Below, in pieces: positions 3,544 to 52,668 of a DNA stretch of 64,000 bases. How positions within the stretch are numbered: position 1 is the stretch's first letter; each line of letters begins with the position of its first letter. A model generated the notes under the pieces. That model was not told the origin of the DNA. It searched no databases and worked only from the letters and a program-made list of their open reading frames with translations. A program made the position numbers and the translations under genes. The stretch comes from Limibacter armeniacum (GTDB lineage: Bacteria; Bacteroidota; Bacteroidia; Cytophagales; Flammeovirgaceae). The stretch is from NCBI RefSeq assembly GCF_036880985.1, contig NZ_JBAJNO010000009.1, positions 1,364,001 through 1,428,000 on the forward strand. Direction: 5' to 3'.

Positions 3544-3552
3544 AGGGGGTGG
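3544..3552. repeat. 9-bp target site duplication, left copy
   Basis: AGGGGGTGG immediately outside the left end of IS copy 1. The same 9 bases lie immediately outside the right end of IS copy 2 (6835-6843). No such match exists at the inner IS ends. Confidence 0.85.
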
Positions 3553-4831
3553 CACTCTACGGTACAGTTTTAATAACAAAGTGAGTTAAGGGTGTAATAC
3601 TGGATTACAGGATATTTGCAGGTTATTTAAGGGCTGATTGGGGCAAGAAAAAGCAAAGGTCTAACTTTGCCGTTCGCCAAAACCACAAGCCAGACCTTTA
3701 CCTTTATGTTGACTGCAAATATACTTGAAATCCTCTGCGGTTTCCAAATCGTCAAAGGCAAACCAAGCAAACAGGTACTAGCCAAGCTAATTACGGCCTT
3801 GGTGGAAGATGAAAATGTGCAATTTCATCAGATAGCCAAAAACTTGCCATCCAAGGCGCAAAAAGCTTCTCGGACCAAGCAAGTCAAACGCTTTATGTCA
3901 GGAGCTGTGTTCAATTATCAGGCCCTGATGGCATGGTTGTTTTCCTGCCTGCCATCCGGAAAGATCACCCTCTGCATTGACCGAACCAACTGGCAGTCCA
4001 GAAAGCAGGCAGTGAATATTCTGGCCGTGACAGCCTACAGTCATGGCGTGGGTTTCCCACTGGCTTTTCGGCTACTGGACAAAAAAGGAAACAGCCACCA
4101 GCAGGAGCGTATTGATTTGCTGAAGGAAGTGCTTCAGATTGTACCTCCCGAGCGGATCGGGAAAGTGATTGCAGACCGGGAGTTTATCGGCAAAAAGTGG
4201 CTTCGGTTTATGACCATGCAAGGGATTGTCTTCTGCGTTCGGATTCCATCACACCACAAAATCAGCATCGATGGTGTGGAGAAAACAGGAGAGGTATGGA
4301 GCAAAGAAGGCTTTCGCTGTACTGACCGAAGAGCGACGATCTATGGAATGGACCTGACCCTTTCCATGCAGATGACCAAGGATAAAAACGGGCGAAAGGA
4401 CTACCTGATCGTAGTCTCAAACCTGATGAAAAGCGGCTTGCTGTCAAGCTATAGAAAACGGTGGAGCATCGAGGTGTTCTTCCAGTCGCTCAAAGGGCGG
4501 GGATTCAACCTGGAAGCCACTCACCTGACCAAATTGGATCGGCTTGAAAGACTTTTTGCTGTGGTGTGTATGGCCTTTGCTGTTTGTCACTTATTTGGCG
4601 TGGCTTTCCATGAAAAAGTACAAAACATAAAAGTAAAGAACCACGGTTACAGGGAGAACAGCTATTTCAGAAAGGGAAAAGATCTGTTGCAGGAGCATTT
4701 CTGTACGAGACCCCGCCAAGTAGGTAATGAGATCAAAGGACTTTGGAAGAAGTTTTGGAGGGGAATTAGTTCCAAAACACCATCTGAAAAACTGGTTTTT
4801 AGTTGGTTATAAAAAAGTGTACCGTAGAGTG
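3553..4831 (+). mobile_element. IS4-family insertion sequence, copy 1
   Basis: The ends are inverted repeats beginning CACTCTACGGTACA at the left and reading TGTACCGTAGAGTG at the right, with one full-length transposase gene inside. The length is 1279 bp, the same as copy 2. The two copies differ at only a handful of positions (for example near 3586, 3599, 4370, 4433, 4702 and 4711), so the duplication is recent. Confidence 0.9.
3667..4812 (+). CDS. IS4-family DDE transposase (copy 1)
   Basis: 381 residues if read from TTG 3667; an ATG at 3706 would give 368. Catalytic residues can be placed: Asp in CIDRTNWQ, Asp in VIADREF, and Glu in the signature YRKRWSIEVFFQSLK, which fits the Y-(2)-R-(3)-E-(6)-K motif of the IS4 family. 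The N-terminal 80 residues are basic and likely bind the ends. The frame is intact and stops 19 bp before the element's right end. Copy 2 encodes the same protein with Ser-to-Arg (near 258), Pro-to-Ser and Ser-to-Pro changes near the C terminus. It catalyses cut-and-paste movement of the element and, with copy 2, of the composite unit. Confidence 0.93.
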   Translation: MPFAKTTSQTFTFMLTANILEILCGFQIVKGKPSKQVLAKLITALVEDENVQFHQIAKNLPSKAQKASRTKQVKRFMSGAVFNYQALMAWLFSCLPSGKITLCIDRTNWQSRKQAVNILAVTAYSHGVGFPLAFRLLDKKGNSHQQERIDLLKEVLQIVPPERIGKVIADREFIGKKWLRFMTMQGIVFCVRIPSHHKISIDGVEKTGEVWSKEGFRCTDRRATIYGMDLTLSMQMTKDKNGRKDYLIVVSNLMKSGLLSSYRKRWSIEVFFQSLKGRGFNLEATHLTKLDRLERLFAVVCMAFAVCHLFGVAFHEKVQNIKVKNHGYRENSYFRKGKDLLQEHFCTRPRQVGNEIKGLWKKFWRGISSKTPSEKLVFSWL

Positions 4832-5555
4832 GGCGTAATGTGTTTTTCAATGCTCCTGTAGCATATTTTAAAACTGATGAAGACACATCTTTTTGTCCTA
4901 ATGCCTTTTCTCCCACATTATTAGTATTTGTGGTTGCAAAAGCATTTAGCGTTTCAGAAAAAAAGAAACCTTTCCCTTTTACAGCAAATTTTTCATTATA
5001 CCCAACCCCCGCATCTACCTGTGTTTTAATAACTCCCTTAAACTCTTCTTTTGTCTCTATGTTGATCACAGGGTCCTGAATACGCTTGAAGTCTAAAGTG
5101 AACTTATCTTTATAATTATCGATAATCTGGACATTTTTCATTATCTCATAATTCAAATTGTCCAATGCCACTTTATTTTGGTTTATAAAAACTTCTTTTC
5201 CGTTTATTAAAACTTTATTTATTTGTTTCCCTTGATATGAAATAGTGCCTTCTTCACCGATTATTACGCCTTCAGTTTTATCAAGCATTTCACGTAAAGT
5301 ACTTTCTTTACTTAAATTCATATGTTCGGTATCCAAGTCTAGTGTATCCGTTACTTCTCGAACCTCAACTACCACTTCTTTAAGTTCTATGATACTTTCT
5401 TCTAAAGTAATTTCCACTGATTGCCCATTTAGTTGCAATGAGATTATTTTTTCTTCAAAACCAATGGAGGTGACATTAATGGTTATTGCTTGTAAAGCAG
5501 AAGGTATTTTTAAAGAAAATTCCCCTTGTGCATTACTGATATCATAGGTTATTGG
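4832..5555 (-). pseudogene. Fragment of a TonB-dependent receptor-like outer-membrane protein
   Basis: Read on the minus strand this 724-bp passenger encodes about 241 residues without its own start or stop. It opens with a carboxypeptidase-regulatory-like beta domain (SNAQGEFSLKIPSALQAI, then VTSIGFEEKII), followed by a plug-like segment (LREMLDKTEGVIIGEEGTI, INKVLINGKEVFI) and the start of a barrel (IKTQVDAGVGYNEKFAVKG). This matches the N-terminal third of Bacteroidota TonB-type receptors. An artificial 306-codon frame (4662-5582) runs through both flanking IS ends and is not a natural gene. The parent gene is not in this window. Confidence 0.8.
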
Positions 5556-6834
5556 CACTCTACGGTACAGTTTTAATAACAAAGTGAATTAAGGGTGTAA
5601 TGCTGGATTACAGGATATTTGCAGGTTATTTAAGGGCTGATTGGGGCAAGAAAAAGCAAAGGTCTAACTTTGCCGTTCGCCAAAACCACAAGCCAGACCT
5701 TTACCTTTATGTTGACTGCAAATATACTTGAAATCCTCTGCGGTTTCCAAATCGTCAAAGGCAAACCAAGCAAACAGGTACTAGCCAAGCTAATTACGGC
5801 CTTGGTGGAAGATGAAAATGTGCAATTTCATCAGATAGCCAAAAACTTGCCATCCAAGGCGCAAAAAGCTTCTCGGACCAAGCAAGTCAAACGCTTTATG
5901 TCAGGAGCTGTGTTCAATTATCAGGCCCTGATGGCATGGTTGTTTTCCTGCCTGCCATCCGGAAAGATCACCCTCTGCATTGACCGAACCAACTGGCAGT
6001 CCAGAAAGCAGGCAGTGAATATTCTGGCCGTGACAGCCTACAGTCATGGCGTGGGTTTCCCACTGGCTTTTCGGCTACTGGACAAAAAAGGAAACAGCCA
6101 CCAGCAGGAGCGTATTGATTTGCTGAAGGAAGTGCTTCAGATTGTACCTCCCGAGCGGATCGGGAAAGTGATTGCAGACCGGGAGTTTATCGGCAAAAAG
6201 TGGCTTCGGTTTATGACCATGCAAGGGATTGTCTTCTGCGTTCGGATTCCATCACACCACAAAATCAGCATCGATGGTGTGGAGAAAACAGGAGAGGTAT
6301 GGAGCAAAGAAGGCTTTCGCTGTACTGACCGAAGAGCGACGATCTATGGAATGGACCTGACTCTTTCCATGCAGATGACCAAGGATAAAAACGGGCGAAA
6401 GGACTACCTGATCGTAGTCTCAAACCTGATGAAAAGAGGCTTGCTGTCAAGCTATAGAAAACGGTGGAGCATCGAGGTGTTCTTCCAGTCGCTCAAAGGG
6501 CGGGGATTCAACCTGGAAGCCACTCACCTGACCAAATTGGATCGGCTTGAAAGACTTTTTGCTGTGGTGTGTATGGCCTTTGCTGTTTGTCACTTATTTG
6601 GCGTGGCTTTCCATGAAAAAGTACAAAACATAAAAGTAAAGAACCACGGTTACAGGGAGAACAGCTATTTCAGAAAGGGAAAAGATCTGTTGCAGGAACA
6701 TTTCTGTACGAGATCCCGCCAAGTAGGTAATGAGATCAAAGGACTTTGGAAGAAGTTTTGGAGGGGAATTAGTCCCAAAACACCATCTGAAAAACTGGTT
6801 TTTAGTTGGTTATAAAAAAGTGTACCGTAGAGTG
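5556..6834 (+). mobile_element. IS4-family insertion sequence, copy 2
   Basis: Near-identical to the 3553-4831 element, with the same length, orientation and inverted ends (CACTCTACGG / CCGTAGAGTG). Its right end meets the second 9-bp target copy at 6835-6843. Together with copy 1 it forms the composite transposon. Confidence 0.9.
5670..6815 (+). CDS. IS4-family DDE transposase (copy 2)
   Basis: Intact 381-residue reading frame from TTG 5670 (alternative ATG 5709), almost identical to the copy 1 protein. The DDE residues and the Y-R-E-K signature (YRKRWSIEVFFQSLK) are conserved. Three amino-acid differences from copy 1 are visible: NLMKRGLL instead of NLMKSGLL, TRSRQVG instead of TRPRQVG, and GISPKTP instead of GISSKTP. 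Both copies look functional, which would allow either IS or the whole composite to move. Confidence 0.93.
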   Translation: MPFAKTTSQTFTFMLTANILEILCGFQIVKGKPSKQVLAKLITALVEDENVQFHQIAKNLPSKAQKASRTKQVKRFMSGAVFNYQALMAWLFSCLPSGKITLCIDRTNWQSRKQAVNILAVTAYSHGVGFPLAFRLLDKKGNSHQQERIDLLKEVLQIVPPERIGKVIADREFIGKKWLRFMTMQGIVFCVRIPSHHKISIDGVEKTGEVWSKEGFRCTDRRATIYGMDLTLSMQMTKDKNGRKDYLIVVSNLMKRGLLSSYRKRWSIEVFFQSLKGRGFNLEATHLTKLDRLERLFAVVCMAFAVCHLFGVAFHEKVQNIKVKNHGYRENSYFRKGKDLLQEHFCTRSRQVGNEIKGLWKKFWRGISPKTPSEKLVFSWL

Positions 6835-27565: not shown

Positions 27566-28278
27566 CTTTAGTCACAGCACCTTGTGCCAGTGGGTAGCTT
27601 TTTACTTTTAAGCAATTATTCAATTGGAATAGAGATTTCCTACTCTAATTCTTTCTCATATTATGAGGTACTAAATGATGTTATCCTGTTCAACCCTTTC
27701 AGGGTTATGATATATTGATTGCTGTAAAATCCAGATTGTCATCTGGAGCTAATATGGTTTCTTTCCTTTGGAAACGGTGTTTGCTGTATGAAAAAATAAT
27801 CCCGAAGGGATTGAACAATAGTAGCCTTCGGCGTAAGCCTGAGATATAAGTAAATTACATTTATCCAACCCCAAAGGAGTTGAACCTATAAACCATCGAT
27901 GAGTTTAAAACTTCCGATTTCAATTATACCTCTGCTTAATAGGTAGCTAGAGCATATGCTTAATACAAAAAAGAACTATTCAATTAGCTATCATACTTAG
28001 AGCTTTAGTTGGATATGTATTTCCTCCACCAAAAAAAATAAAATAACAACTTCTGAATCGAGTTAAGTTGTATCGCGAGTGATAGTACTACACAACTCGA
28101 ACACTATACCTATTATCCCCTATTAGAGCAAAGGTACTGTTAGCAACTACCCAGTTGCTATCCTTCCTTATTTCTTACGTATGTAATTTCCTACTTTTCT
28201 GCCCACAGCAAGTCCCCTTCTACCTCCCTATCTTAGGATTATAGTTTCTTTATTAATCATTTAACCTATTTATCAACT
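27566..28278. other. Intergenic region holding class 1 repeat copy A
   Basis: 713 bp without a gene. 27608-27939 is a class 1 hairpin repeat. After it comes AT-rich DNA with a small palindrome (CGAGTTAAGTTGTATCGCGAG near 28060) and then the leader of the next gene. No promoter could be assigned with confidence. Confidence 0.6.
27608..27939 (+). repeat. Class 1 dispersed hairpin repeat, copy A
   Basis: 332 bp, nearly identical to 44029-44358 and, in reverse, 51321-51652. Ends are TTAAGCA and TGCTTAA. Inside are six or seven short hairpins with conserved stems: TAGAG/CTCTA, CCCTTTCAGGG, CCAGATTGTCATCTGG, TTTCCTTTGGAAA, ATCCCGAAGGGAT, and AGGAGTT. Differences between copies fall mostly in loops. 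Confidence 0.8.
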
Positions 28279-43896: not shown

Positions 43897-43906
43897 TTAA
43901 AATAAT
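43897..43906. repeat. Flanking direct repeat of a class 2 element, left
   Basis: TTAAAATAAT directly before the class 2 inverted end; the same 10 bases are at 44425-44434 directly after its right end. A target duplication of 9-10 bp. Confidence 0.75.
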
Positions 43907-44424
43907 GTGAACTATGGATTATATCACCCCTTCAGGGCTGAATAGTGTGATTTTCATTACGATGGGATGAATCCCATCGCTGACATATATTGTCCTCTCA
44001 GGACTTCTGCCCTGAAAGGACAATATATAAGCAAGTATTGAATTGGAATAGAGATTTCCTACTCTAATCCTTTCACATATTATGATCTATTAAATGATGT
44101 TATCCTATTCAACCCTTTCAGGGTTATGATATATTGATTGCTGTAAAATCCAGATTGCCATCTGGAGCTAATATGGTTTGTTTCCTTCGGAAACGGTGTT
44201 TGCTGTATGAAAAAATAATCCCGAAGGGATTGAACAATAGTAGCCTTAGGCGTAAGCCTGAGGTATAAGTAAATTACATTTATCCAACTCCAAAGGAGTT
44301 GAACCTATAAACCATCGATGAGTTTAAAACTTCCGATTTCAATTATACCTCTGCTTAATTGCAATGGACTGAAATCCATCGTGATGGAACGTCCTAGCAG
44401 CGATAGTCTAATCCATAGCTCACG
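43907..44424. mobile_element. MITE-like class 2 repeat element with a nested class 1 repeat
   Basis: The ends GTGAACTATGGATTA and TAATCCATAGCTCACG are inverted copies (14 of 15). Outside lie matching TTAAAATAAT repeats. The first 58 nt and last 60 nt are nearly identical to the short element at 49721-49837. Between them lie extra hairpins and a full class 1 repeat (44029-44358), so class 1 entered after or with this copy. No coding capacity, so movement would need a transposase from elsewhere. It sits between moxR and DUF58 in the Bat operon. Confidence 0.72.
44029..44358 (+). repeat. Class 1 dispersed hairpin repeat, copy B
   Basis: About 330 bp, over 90 percent identical to 27608-27939 by eye; ends AAGCA and TGCTTAA. 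Stems are kept and loops vary: CCAGATTGCCATCTGG here has C where copy A has T. Confidence 0.8.
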
Positions 44425-44434
44425 TTAAAATAAT
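44425..44434. repeat. Flanking direct repeat of a class 2 element, right
   Basis: TTAAAATAAT, identical to 43897-43906. Confidence 0.75.
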
Positions 44435-47022: not shown

Positions 47023-47228
47023 AAGATCATATAATTTGATAGATAAAACTTTATCACGATAAACATCTTATTAGTTAATGTCGGTGACTGAGCGAAGCCG
47101 AAGTCTCAATAAACAATCCTCCCTTCAACTACTTTGGCAGGATCAGCATACATTCGCTCAGGGAACATCGAGCGTATTGTTAACCATGGTGAATGTTAAT
47201 CGTGATAAAGTAACGAGTAGCAACAATG
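47023..47228. other. Gap between tandem sulfatases filled by a class 3 repeat
   Basis: 206 bp; 47048-47211 is the class 3 element. No gene. Confidence 0.6.
47048..47211. repeat. Class 3 repeat with inverted ends, intact copy
   Basis: ACTTTATCACGATAAACAT (47048) and ATGTTAATCGTGATAAAGT (47193) are inverted copies, 18 of 19. The 164-bp interior has TGAGCGAAGCCGAAGTCTCA and similar Cytophagales-type repeats. A second copy (50680-51294) carries a nested class 2 element and a partial third lies near 52541-52668. Confidence 0.7.
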
Positions 47229-49720: not shown

Positions 49721-49837
49721 ACGTGAACTATGGATTATATCACCCCTTCAGGGCTGAATAGTGTGATTTTCATTACGATGGATTTCAGTCCATCGTGAAA
49801 TAACGTCCTAGCAGCGATAGTCTAATCCATAGCTCAC
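49721..49837. mobile_element. MITE-like class 2 repeat element, compact copy
   Basis: 117 bp from ACGTGAACTATGGATTA to TAATCCATAGCTCACT, with hairpins CCCCTTCAGGGC and GATGGATTTCAGTCCATC. Flanks TATAAATA and TTTAAATA agree in 7 of 8, possibly a decayed target duplication. It is an internally deleted relative of 43907-44424. Confidence 0.65.
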
Positions 49838-49850
49838 TTTAAATAGACAA

Positions 49851-50408: not shown

Positions 50409-50705
50409 AATGTGTTTTCTGTTTTTTTAAGGTTAAATCTAAACTGATATGTTTATTACAGGAATTTTTCCTGATCTGCATATGGTAACAACTACAAGGT
50501 AAGGCAAGAGTAACCTTTATTTCAAGGGTGGTGTAAGAAGTGCCAAACCTTCTTTCTTTCAGGGAATAAGTAACGTCATCTCTATAAAACACCCCCTATA
50601 GTCAGTTCTATCTTTTCTTTCATTGATACCGAAAACCTTATGTAAGAAAAAAACACAATTGCTATTCCAATATGTTAGCCTTTATCACGATTGAAATTCA
50701 TCGTA

Positions 50706-50714
50706 TTAACAATA
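50706..50714. repeat. 9-bp target duplication of class 2 element, left
   Basis: TTAACAATA, repeated at 51164-51172. Confidence 0.78.
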
Positions 50715-51163
50715 GCGTGAATTATGGATTTATCTTCAAGTATATCGCCCTTTCAGGACTGAACAGTGTGGTTTTCATTACGACGGGATAATCGCGTGTG
50801 CAACGGCCATCGCTGATATATTCAGTCCCTTCGGGACATCTACCCTGAAAGGGTAAAATATAATAGTGATGGATTTCAATCCATCTCATTCATGATACCT
50901 TAAAAGCGAATTCTAATCCAAAACGCACATTATATTATGATGGACTAAATGAACGTGAACTATGGATTATACCACCCCTTCAGGGCTGAAATATCGTTTA
51001 CATGACAATGGACTAAAGTCCATCGCTGATATATTTTGTCCCTTCGGGACTTATGCCCTGAAAGGGTCTTATACAATAGCGATGGGTATCACCCATCGTA
51101 AAGAAAGACATGTAAATCAGCCCAAAAAGGGCGAAATAGCGACATTTCAATACATAACTCACG
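50715..51163. mobile_element. MITE-like class 2 repeat element, tandem pair, inside a class 3 repeat
   Basis: 449 bp between TTAACAATA duplications. The left end GCGTGAATTATGG and right end CATAACTCACG are inverted. Two units are fused head to tail: the first ends TCTAATCCAAAACGCAC near 50927, the second starts ACGTGAACTATGGATTA at 50951. Inside are hairpins GTCCCTTCGGGAC, CCCTGAAAGGG and GATGGGTATCACCCATC. No coding frame. Confidence 0.72.
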
Positions 51164-51172
51164 TTAACAATA
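51164..51172. repeat. 9-bp target duplication of class 2 element, right
   Basis: TTAACAATA, identical to 50706-50714. Confidence 0.78.
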
Positions 51173-51320
51173 CTATCGGTGTTCCCTGATCGAAGCCGAA
51201 GGGCGATTTATTTAGACTTCGACTACTTCGGCAGACTCTGCTTACATTCGCTCTGTCACCGATGTTAACTATAAAGTGTAAATCGTGATAAAGTTCATTA
51301 TCAAGACTCCGCAGTTATAT

Positions 51321-51652
51321 TAAGCAGAGGTATCATTGAAATCGGAAGTTTTAAACGCATCGATGGTTTATAGGTTCAACTCCTTTGGAGTTGGATAAAT
51401 GTAATTTACTTATACCTCAGGCTTAGGCCTAAGGCTACTATTGTTCAATCCCTTCGGGATTATTTTTTCACACAGCAAACACCGTTTCCGAAGGAAACAA
51501 ACCATATTAGCTCCAGATGGCAATCTGGATTTTACAGCCATCAATATATCATAACCCTGAAAGGGTTGAACAGGATAACATCATTTAGTACCTCATAATA
51601 TGAGAAAGGATTAGAGTAGGAAATCTCTATTCCAATTCAATACTTGCTTAAT
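51321..51652 (-). repeat. Class 1 dispersed hairpin repeat, copy C
   Basis: Reverse orientation relative to copies A and B, ends ATTAAGCA and TGCTTAAT, same hairpin order: CAACTCCTTTGGAGTTG, ATCCCTTCGGGAT, TTTCCGAAGGAAA, CCAGATGGCAATCTGG, CCCTGAAAGGG. Confidence 0.8.
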
Positions 51653-51898: not shown

Positions 51899-52468
51899 TC
51901 AAGCAGACCTTCTCTGTTCCAGATGCGATAATAGCTCCGTTTGTATTACTAGATTGGTTTTATGACTTTCAAAATCCCTGAGACGTGGCGAAAGCGCCTT
52001 CCAATACAAAAGCAGTAACTGCACATGTGGGCGATTAAGACGTGGTTGGATGGGTTTCTCGTGAAGTTTAAATAGGCTAGGACTCTTCAATATAAAGATA
52101 CTCCGTCTAGAATGAGGCCCTCTGAGATAACAATCGTTATAGTCTGCATTCCATGCTGTGCATACCCTACCATATGGAAGGGGAGCTGCCTTGCGAGGGA
52201 ATAACTCAGGCAGGATCAGACCAGACTTGCGGGCACTTCCCCTGACAAATAAACGTCCCTGATACAAGCTGTCAGCCTTAAATGGGTCATACACTCCCCC
52301 ATGAGAATTACGTTTGATCTCTCTTGAGATGGTGGAGCGGTGTACACCAATCAAGCGAGCAATCACTGCTTGTGACTTTCCCATATAAAGGAAGACGCTG
52401 ATCATCATTCGCTGTGCCTTGGTCAAGTGCCTGAAGGTACGGTTTGTATGTTCGCTTTCTTGATGCAT
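51899..52468 (-). CDS. IS30-type HTH protein without a transposase domain (second)
   Basis: 189 residues from the Met at 52468 (MHQESEHTNRTFRHLTKAQR); the longer frame to 52627 has a Cys/Leu-rich, unlikely N terminus. Residues 14-60 form the IS30-type HTH (MMISVFLYMGKSQAVIARLI, GVHRSTISREIKRNSHGG). After DPFKADSLYQGRL the expected DDE part is missing; the remaining 110 residues are basic and unlike the C terminus of the 14806 protein. It is surrounded by repeats, and an inverted repeat AACCTTAC/GTAAGGTT (52486-52517) lies just upstream. Function unknown; a DNA-binding role is likely. Confidence 0.55.
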   Translation of the reverse strand: MHQESEHTNRTFRHLTKAQRMMISVFLYMGKSQAVIARLIGVHRSTISREIKRNSHGGVYDPFKADSLYQGRLFVRGSARKSGLILPELFPRKAAPLPYGRVCTAWNADYNDCYLRGPHSRRSIFILKSPSLFKLHEKPIQPRLNRPHVQLLLLYWKALSPRLRDFESHKTNLVIQTELLSHLEQRRSA

Positions 52469-52485
52469 AGTAACAAGATAAGAAA

Positions 52486-52517
52486 ACCTTACACCTCCAC
52501 AGCAGGGACGTAAGGTT
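52486..52517. promoter_or_regulatory. Inverted repeat upstream of the HTH gene
   Basis: AACCTTAC and GTAAGGTT, 8-bp arms about 16 nt apart, 18 bp before the proposed start codon at 52468. It could be an operator for the HTH protein. Confidence 0.4.
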
Positions 52518-52540
52518 AAAAGTGTACTTGCCAAATAACA

Positions 52541-52668
52541 CATCGGTGACTGAGCGGATGTATGCTGAGCTTGTCGAAGTAGCCGAAGTCTCAATAAATA
52601 ATCCCTTAGACTTGGTTCAAGGAACATCGAACGTACTGTTATTACGATGAATGTTAATCGTTATTAAC
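52541..52668. repeat. Partial class 3 repeat
   Basis: CATCGGTGACTGAGCGGAT ... GAACATCGAACGTACTGTT ... GAATGTTAATCGTTATTAAC matches the interior and right part of the element at 47048; the left inverted end is missing. Confidence 0.55.

Follow-up and report, generated by a model that had tools for sequence, protein, structure and literature searches.

A class 3 repeat of Limibacter armeniacum is interrupted by a 450-bp insert which most probably arrived as one unit, made up of two gene-less miniature elements of apparent IS982 type, MITE A and MITE B, and 22 bp of a class 1 repeat enclosed between them, its movement resembling that of a composite transposon. The insert lies in a stretch of 64,000 nucleotides (contig NZ_JBAJNO010000009.1, positions 1,364,001 to 1,428,000) which was analysed as a whole and is referred to as the window; positions without a prefix are those of the window (Table 1). 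That class 2, the family to which both halves of the insert belong, is mobile and has inserted at this class 3 site is virtually beyond doubt.

Table 1. Repeats, mobile elements and duplications of the window (TSD, target site duplication)
Feature	Positions	Strand	Remarks
Class 2 MITE with an intervening class 1 repeat (about 44028-44359)	43905..44425	+	exact 7-bp TSD TAAAATA
Intact class 3 copy, serving as empty site	47049..47210	-	one TTAACAATA
Class 2 MITE, 119 bp	49721..49839	+	TSD TAAATA at both sides
Non-coding palindrome of class 3, interrupted by the class 2 insert	50680..51293	.	about 156 bp after subtraction of the insert and one duplication
TSD TAACAATA, left copy, 8 bp	50707..50714	.	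T at 50706 extends the match to 9
Composite insert, 450 bp	50715..51164	+	MITEs A and B around a class 1 linker of 22 bp; outermost ends GCGTGAATTATGGATT / ATACATAACTCACGT
MITE A, 216 bp	50715..50930	+	family of C8:2319320-2319536 (TSD TAGATTA) and C2:251869-252073 (TSD TAAGTA)
Linker TATATTATGATGGACTAAATGA, 22 bp	50931..50952	.	exact reverse complement of class 1 DNA adjoining B in L007
MITE B, 212 bp	50953..51164	+	family of C8:130102-130338 and C9:2062732-2062950
Hairpin pair in MITE B, match to Rfam RF01687 Acido-Lenti-1	51006..51051	+	37.7 bits, cut-off 37
TSD TAACAATA, right copy, 8 bp	51165..51172	.	repeat of the left copy
Class 1 repeat, intact	51319..51651	+	unoccupied TCATTTA site, used by MITE B in L007, L010 and L002

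The interruption becomes apparent from the spacing of the class 3 ends. CTTTATCACGATT (starting at 50680) and AATCGTGATAAAG (ending at 51293) span 614 bp in the split repeat compared to only 162 bp at 47049-47210; the original prediction had recognised this expansion, giving 615 bp and 162-164 bp. On both flanks of the insert the motif TTAACAATA is present (50706-50714 and 51164-51172). When the flanks are joined and aligned with further class 3 copies from this genome (L031, L033, L035, L039 and L049), all five turn out to contain a TTAACAATA-like site once and without insert, L033 reading ATTCATCGTATTAACAATA, which equals the left junction letter for letter. Since the motif is single and uninterrupted in these copies, it represents target consensus and not class 2 sequence, as a target duplication requires. 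This settles the doubt of whether the motif belongs to the class 2 consensus, and it bears out the view that class 2 has jumped into class 3. The uninterrupted copies thereby take the role of the empty sites in relatives that the original prediction had proposed to check. The length of the duplication, originally given as 9 bp, needs revision while the duplication itself stands. If the boundaries are set according to the IS982 relatives described below, which start with ACGTGA and end with TCACGT (ACGT...ACGT), the insert comprises 450 bp and the duplication is better read as the 8-bp sequence TAACAATA. The ninth matching base, a T, belongs to the element as its terminal base and coincides with the target base. 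The first base of the insert is G where the consensus has A. In local intergenic DNA the identity of two 8-mers is expected by chance at a frequency of about 5e-5.

Class 2 consists of about 40-50 non-coding elements of 119-521 bp, and the insert finds 49 matches in the nine-contig genome of 8.04 Mb. The class 2 terminal inverted repeats of 16 bp, ACGTGARYTATGGATT, exactly fit the end consensus AC(N)6T(N)5TT of the IS982 family (Fayad et al. 2020, PMC7335449). If two mismatches at most are tolerated, the end motif CGTGARYTATGGATT occurs 127 times in the genome versus 41 times for a reversed control pattern. Target duplications, whose occurrence throughout the genome the original prediction had proposed to check, are indeed enriched: 11 of the 25 copies retrieved from this genome with both ends recognisable show an exact duplication of at least 6 bp at ACGT...ACGT, whereas permutation of the right flanks among the copies (20000 shuffles) yielded a mean of 0.92 and a maximum of 6. 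The list of end pairs tolerated up to three mismatches per end and therefore includes some decayed copies. The duplications comprise, among others, TAGATTA, TAAGTA, TAACTA, TAAATAA, TCATTTA and TAAAATA; in about half of the class 2 copies a duplication is no longer visible. In other genomes, eight of 18 elements with these ends exhibit an exact duplication (0.78 expected). These duplications, together with the absence of any ORF of at least 100 aa within 50715-51164, 49721-49839 and 43905-44425, uphold the earlier description of class 2 as non-coding and mobile. The notion that the repeated TTAACAATA arose by chance or is a built-in feature of the repeat, without any movement at all, has a vanishingly small probability. 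The motif is AT-rich and part of the class 3 consensus, as such a notion would demand, but it is found only once in other class 3 copies, and many class 2 copies display different 6- to 8-bp duplications at unrelated sites; empty class 3 sites, duplications elsewhere and the shuffle statistics refute it.

Complete insertion sequences with class 2-like ends exist elsewhere. A scan of the exact pattern AACGTGARYTATGGATTA through one genome per species (84,980 species) matched 79 stretches, mostly from Cytophagales and other Bacteroidetes, four of which (L174, L143, L117 and L173) contain two facing end copies about 1.02-1.03 kb apart. Intact genes are present in L174 (304 aa) and L143 (311 aa), both matching PF13612 as well as NF033520 (IS982 family transposase; 9e-56 and 4e-59, respectively, over cut-off). 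L197 likewise contains an intact gene between these ends, while those of L117 and L173 are broken into short ORFs. Seven-bp duplications of the form T.....A border L174 (TAATCTA), L117 (TAAATTA) and L173 (TAAACTA); L143 starts at a contig end. The IS with ACGTGAACTATGGATTA ends for which the original prediction had suggested a search is therefore present in other Cytophagales as a complete IS982 element of about 1.03 kb. Further IS982 elements of the order possess ends such as ACGTGACTTATGGATT, ACGTGAGTTCTGGATT and ACGTGAACTCGG along with duplications of 6-8 bp, and this duplication style (6-8 bp, T...A) is common to class 2 MITEs and IS982 elements. Other genomes also contain short elements without genes that have the same ends, each with an exact 7-bp duplication (L133, TGCATTA; L155, TAGTTTA; L156, TAAACTA). 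That the motor of class 2 is of the IS982 type appears to us almost certain. The IS982 gene of a genome of the same family (G001, L202) was discarded as its inverted repeats are not recognisable, and IS1, IS1595 and IS66, other families with 8- to 9-bp duplications, were dropped once IS982 had been found. In Rhodocytophaga aerolata KACC 12507 the ACGTGAACTATGGATTA end marks the breakpoint of many contigs (L102, L106-L109 and others), from which it follows that the cognate IS982 is probably multicopy there.

Judged by its ends, size, duplications and lack of genes, class 2 would be classified as an IS982-type MITE family. It shares with the IS982 family, whose autonomous members measure about 1 kb and generate direct repeats of variable length (PMC7335449), the end consensus, and elements with identical ends encode the corresponding transposase (NF033520/PF13612). 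Unlike an IS982 IS, class 2 lacks a transposase and has only its ends, about 20-24 terminal bp, in common with the complete copies found here. As nothing is shared beyond them, the hairpin-rich interior (z-score -6.4 as single-stranded DNA) seems to have another origin. A parental IS in the same genome or an IS-derived interior, both common in MITEs without being a requirement of the class, was not found, the matching autonomous IS being confined to other genomes. The exact class 2 inverted repeat is present in none of 17 family members, and among 38 genomes searched only one distant relative gave weak matches to the interior. A further member of the order Cytophagales is Cardinium. This Bacteroidota endosymbiont hosts MITECca01, which is, similar to class 2, a gene-less element (of about 240 bp) with IS982-type ends that often resides inside other mobile elements (Halter et al. 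2022, PMC9769881). As described there, Cardinium retains the parental ISCca4, whereas the genome carrying class 2 yielded no IS whose ends match; no mention of a MITECca01 composite was encountered in that study (PMC9769881).

Within this genome, the end motifs listed include no two that face each other at a distance of about 1 kb, tblastn with the L174 transposase returned nothing better than 0.005, and end-motif, tblastn and IS982 profile searches did not detect a transposase of the matching-end group. Class 2 thus appears to be a family of orphan MITEs, the likely motors of which are still present in other Cytophagales. The gene-less elements would keep only the inverted repeats recognised by an IS982-family transposase that is supplied in trans. 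Either the cognate IS has been lost from the strain after the family had spread, or a resident IS982 moves class 2 despite its different ends. The profile search revealed three identical copies of such an element (C8:1408562, C9:2505740 and C9:3208450) with ends ACTCAAGTTGCACTTT / ATTCAAGTTGCGTTTG. Cross-mobilisation by it, upon which class 2 would no longer be an orphan family, is compatible with a joint jump but rather unlikely. The identical copies speak for recent activity, the duplications (TAAGAATA, TAATTA and TAAATTA) follow the class 2 style, and the ends agree at the family-level positions AC, T9 and TT; outside these positions, however, they mostly differ from class 2, and the transposase shares merely 29% identity over 102 aa with those of the ACGTGA group. 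Two other loci were rejected: the array C8:2319320-2324324 as a possible autonomous element, since its ORFs are polymorphic-toxin-like and do not resemble an IS982 transposase, and, as a partner, a 1.5-kb IS inside class 2 (~C1:134076-135645) the ends of which, TAGGGTGTCC, are different.

The insert had originally been taken for a single class 2 element of 449 bp. Its class 2 nature holds, but end motifs occur in it at four places, near 50715(+), 50930(-), 50953(+) and 51164(-), and it consists of two class 2 elements joined by a class 1 linker. Halves A and B each occur alone elsewhere with duplications of their own. In L007, a class 1 repeat harbours B alone, with TCATTTAGTCCATCATAATATATGAAAGGG coming directly after it; in intact class 1 copies the homologous site is unoccupied. 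At C8:123631-124076 (L002) the arrangement A-linker-B is embedded in a class 1 repeat, with 434 of 451 aligned positions identical (96%) to the composite of the window. At this locus the flanks of B read CCATTGA/TCATTTA and those of A TGATATA/TAATATA, near matches only (5/7 and 6/7, respectively), and the outermost pair lacks a duplication. In the window (L001) it is the outer pair that exhibits the exact TAACAATA/TAACAATA duplication, with none around A alone or B alone. Duplication of the outer ends only is thus accompanied by a linker traceable to a donor-like class 1 locus, L002 being either the donor of the window composite or the donor's sister. A third composite with the same linker (L003, C9:2090154 on) contains a recombined A half between outer flanks TATAGTA/TATAGCA and is older than the others.

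Given inner duplications at L002 and an outer-only duplication in the window, the simplest history comprises two separate insertions into class 1 followed by a joint jump. MITEs A and B would have inserted, in either order as far as the model is concerned, 22 bp apart into one class 1 repeat; the transposase would then have taken the two outermost ends as those of one element, and A and B, with the 22 bp of class 1 between them, would have been transferred together, 450 bp in all, into the window's class 3 repeat, leaving the 8-bp duplication. Alternatively, a single class 2 MITE might have entered class 3 and later been replaced by A-linker-B through homologous recombination or gene conversion with a class 1 locus such as L002, a scenario which leaves class 2 mobility unchanged but dispenses with the composite jump. 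Class 2 copies do recombine, as is evident from the mosaic L003, in which other class 2 sequence stands in place of the A half, and from L052, where class 2 joins class 3 at a shared AATCC. Yet this route requires two events where one is enough; L001 and L002 resemble each other to about the same degree in all three parts (B 204/212, A 209/217, linker 21/22) without a visible switch point, and L003 again shows a near-matching outer duplication. We hence consider recombination improbable and prefer the joint jump. The latter resembles TIME-COMP (Szuplewska et al. 2014, PMC4133298) in that a pair of miniature elements mobilises the enclosed DNA as one unit under target duplication and the donor arrangement is readable from sequence. 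TIME-COMP, however, is built of Tn3-derived MITEs with 38-bp Tn3-type ends, 5-bp duplications and kilobase cargo including genes (PMC4133298), whereas the present composite has IS982-type ends, duplications of 6-8 bp and a cargo of 22 bp of another repeat, so it is not a TIME-COMP proper. A description of composite IS982 MITEs was not found in the open-access literature.

Class 1 repeats are found in the window at 44028-44359, 51319-51651 and 27608-27941; they measure about 330 bp with ends TAAGCAGAGG / TACTTGCTTA, and several copies are 97-98% identical. No duplication beyond a possible TA is seen, and the empty site CAATA-TA-ATTGC in the class 2 copy 43905-44425 suggests that class 1 may be a TA-targeting (IS630/Tc1-like) MITE. 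L052 (C1:133978-135816) is a second class 3 repeat holding a class 2 element, which itself contains, within its CCCTTCAGG hairpin, the 1.5-kb IS with ends TAGGGTGTCC / GGACACCCTA; its right class 2 end meets class 3 at the shared AATCC, indicating that part of class 3 has been lost. A class 2-like hairpin in L035 also carries an end of this IS. In L069 (C8:2312000-2331000) truncated MITE A copies with shared flanks recur at a spacing of 1.8 kb beside polymorphic-toxin-like genes, as if multiplied along with duplicated cassettes. Elsewhere in the window, near-identical repeat copies 2 kb apart (3550-3849 and 5553-5852), each with a 381-aa ORF of which the first is a DDE transposase (PF01609), are one IS in two copies, and a 242-aa ORF at 51899-52627 (-) whose HTH_38 domain is also seen in IS30-like transposases is possibly a fragment.

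The hairpin pair of MITE B matches the covariance model of Acido-Lenti-1 (RF01687), and a second match in the window, at 43960-44005, again corresponds to a class 2 hairpin pair. Acido-Lenti-1 is listed among candidate sRNAs (Weinberg et al. 2010, PMC2864571), whereas in this genome 11 of the 12 matches above cut-off fall within class 2 mobile elements. All matches taken together occupy 42 places, 32 of them in class 2 (25) or class 1 (7). Among 98 Cytophagales genomes, tens of copies are present only here and in one other (G033), most carrying none. From this survey, which covers Cytophagales only, we tentatively raise the possibility, without favouring it, that Acido-Lenti-1 is a hairpin module multiplied by mobile miniature elements and not an RNA gene.

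If this were true, the conservation of Acido-Lenti-1 would reflect transposition or a role of the hairpin as DNA, and the class 2 hits suggest re-examining this Rfam family as a mobile hairpin. The joint jump, for its part, would mean that composite-MITE behaviour, described for Tn3 elements, also occurs in an IS982-type family. The window and its donor-like locus would then preserve a sequence record of two gene-less elements becoming one larger mobile unit, in which each step, the separate insertions into one host repeat and the joint jump with host DNA, is marked by its own target duplication.
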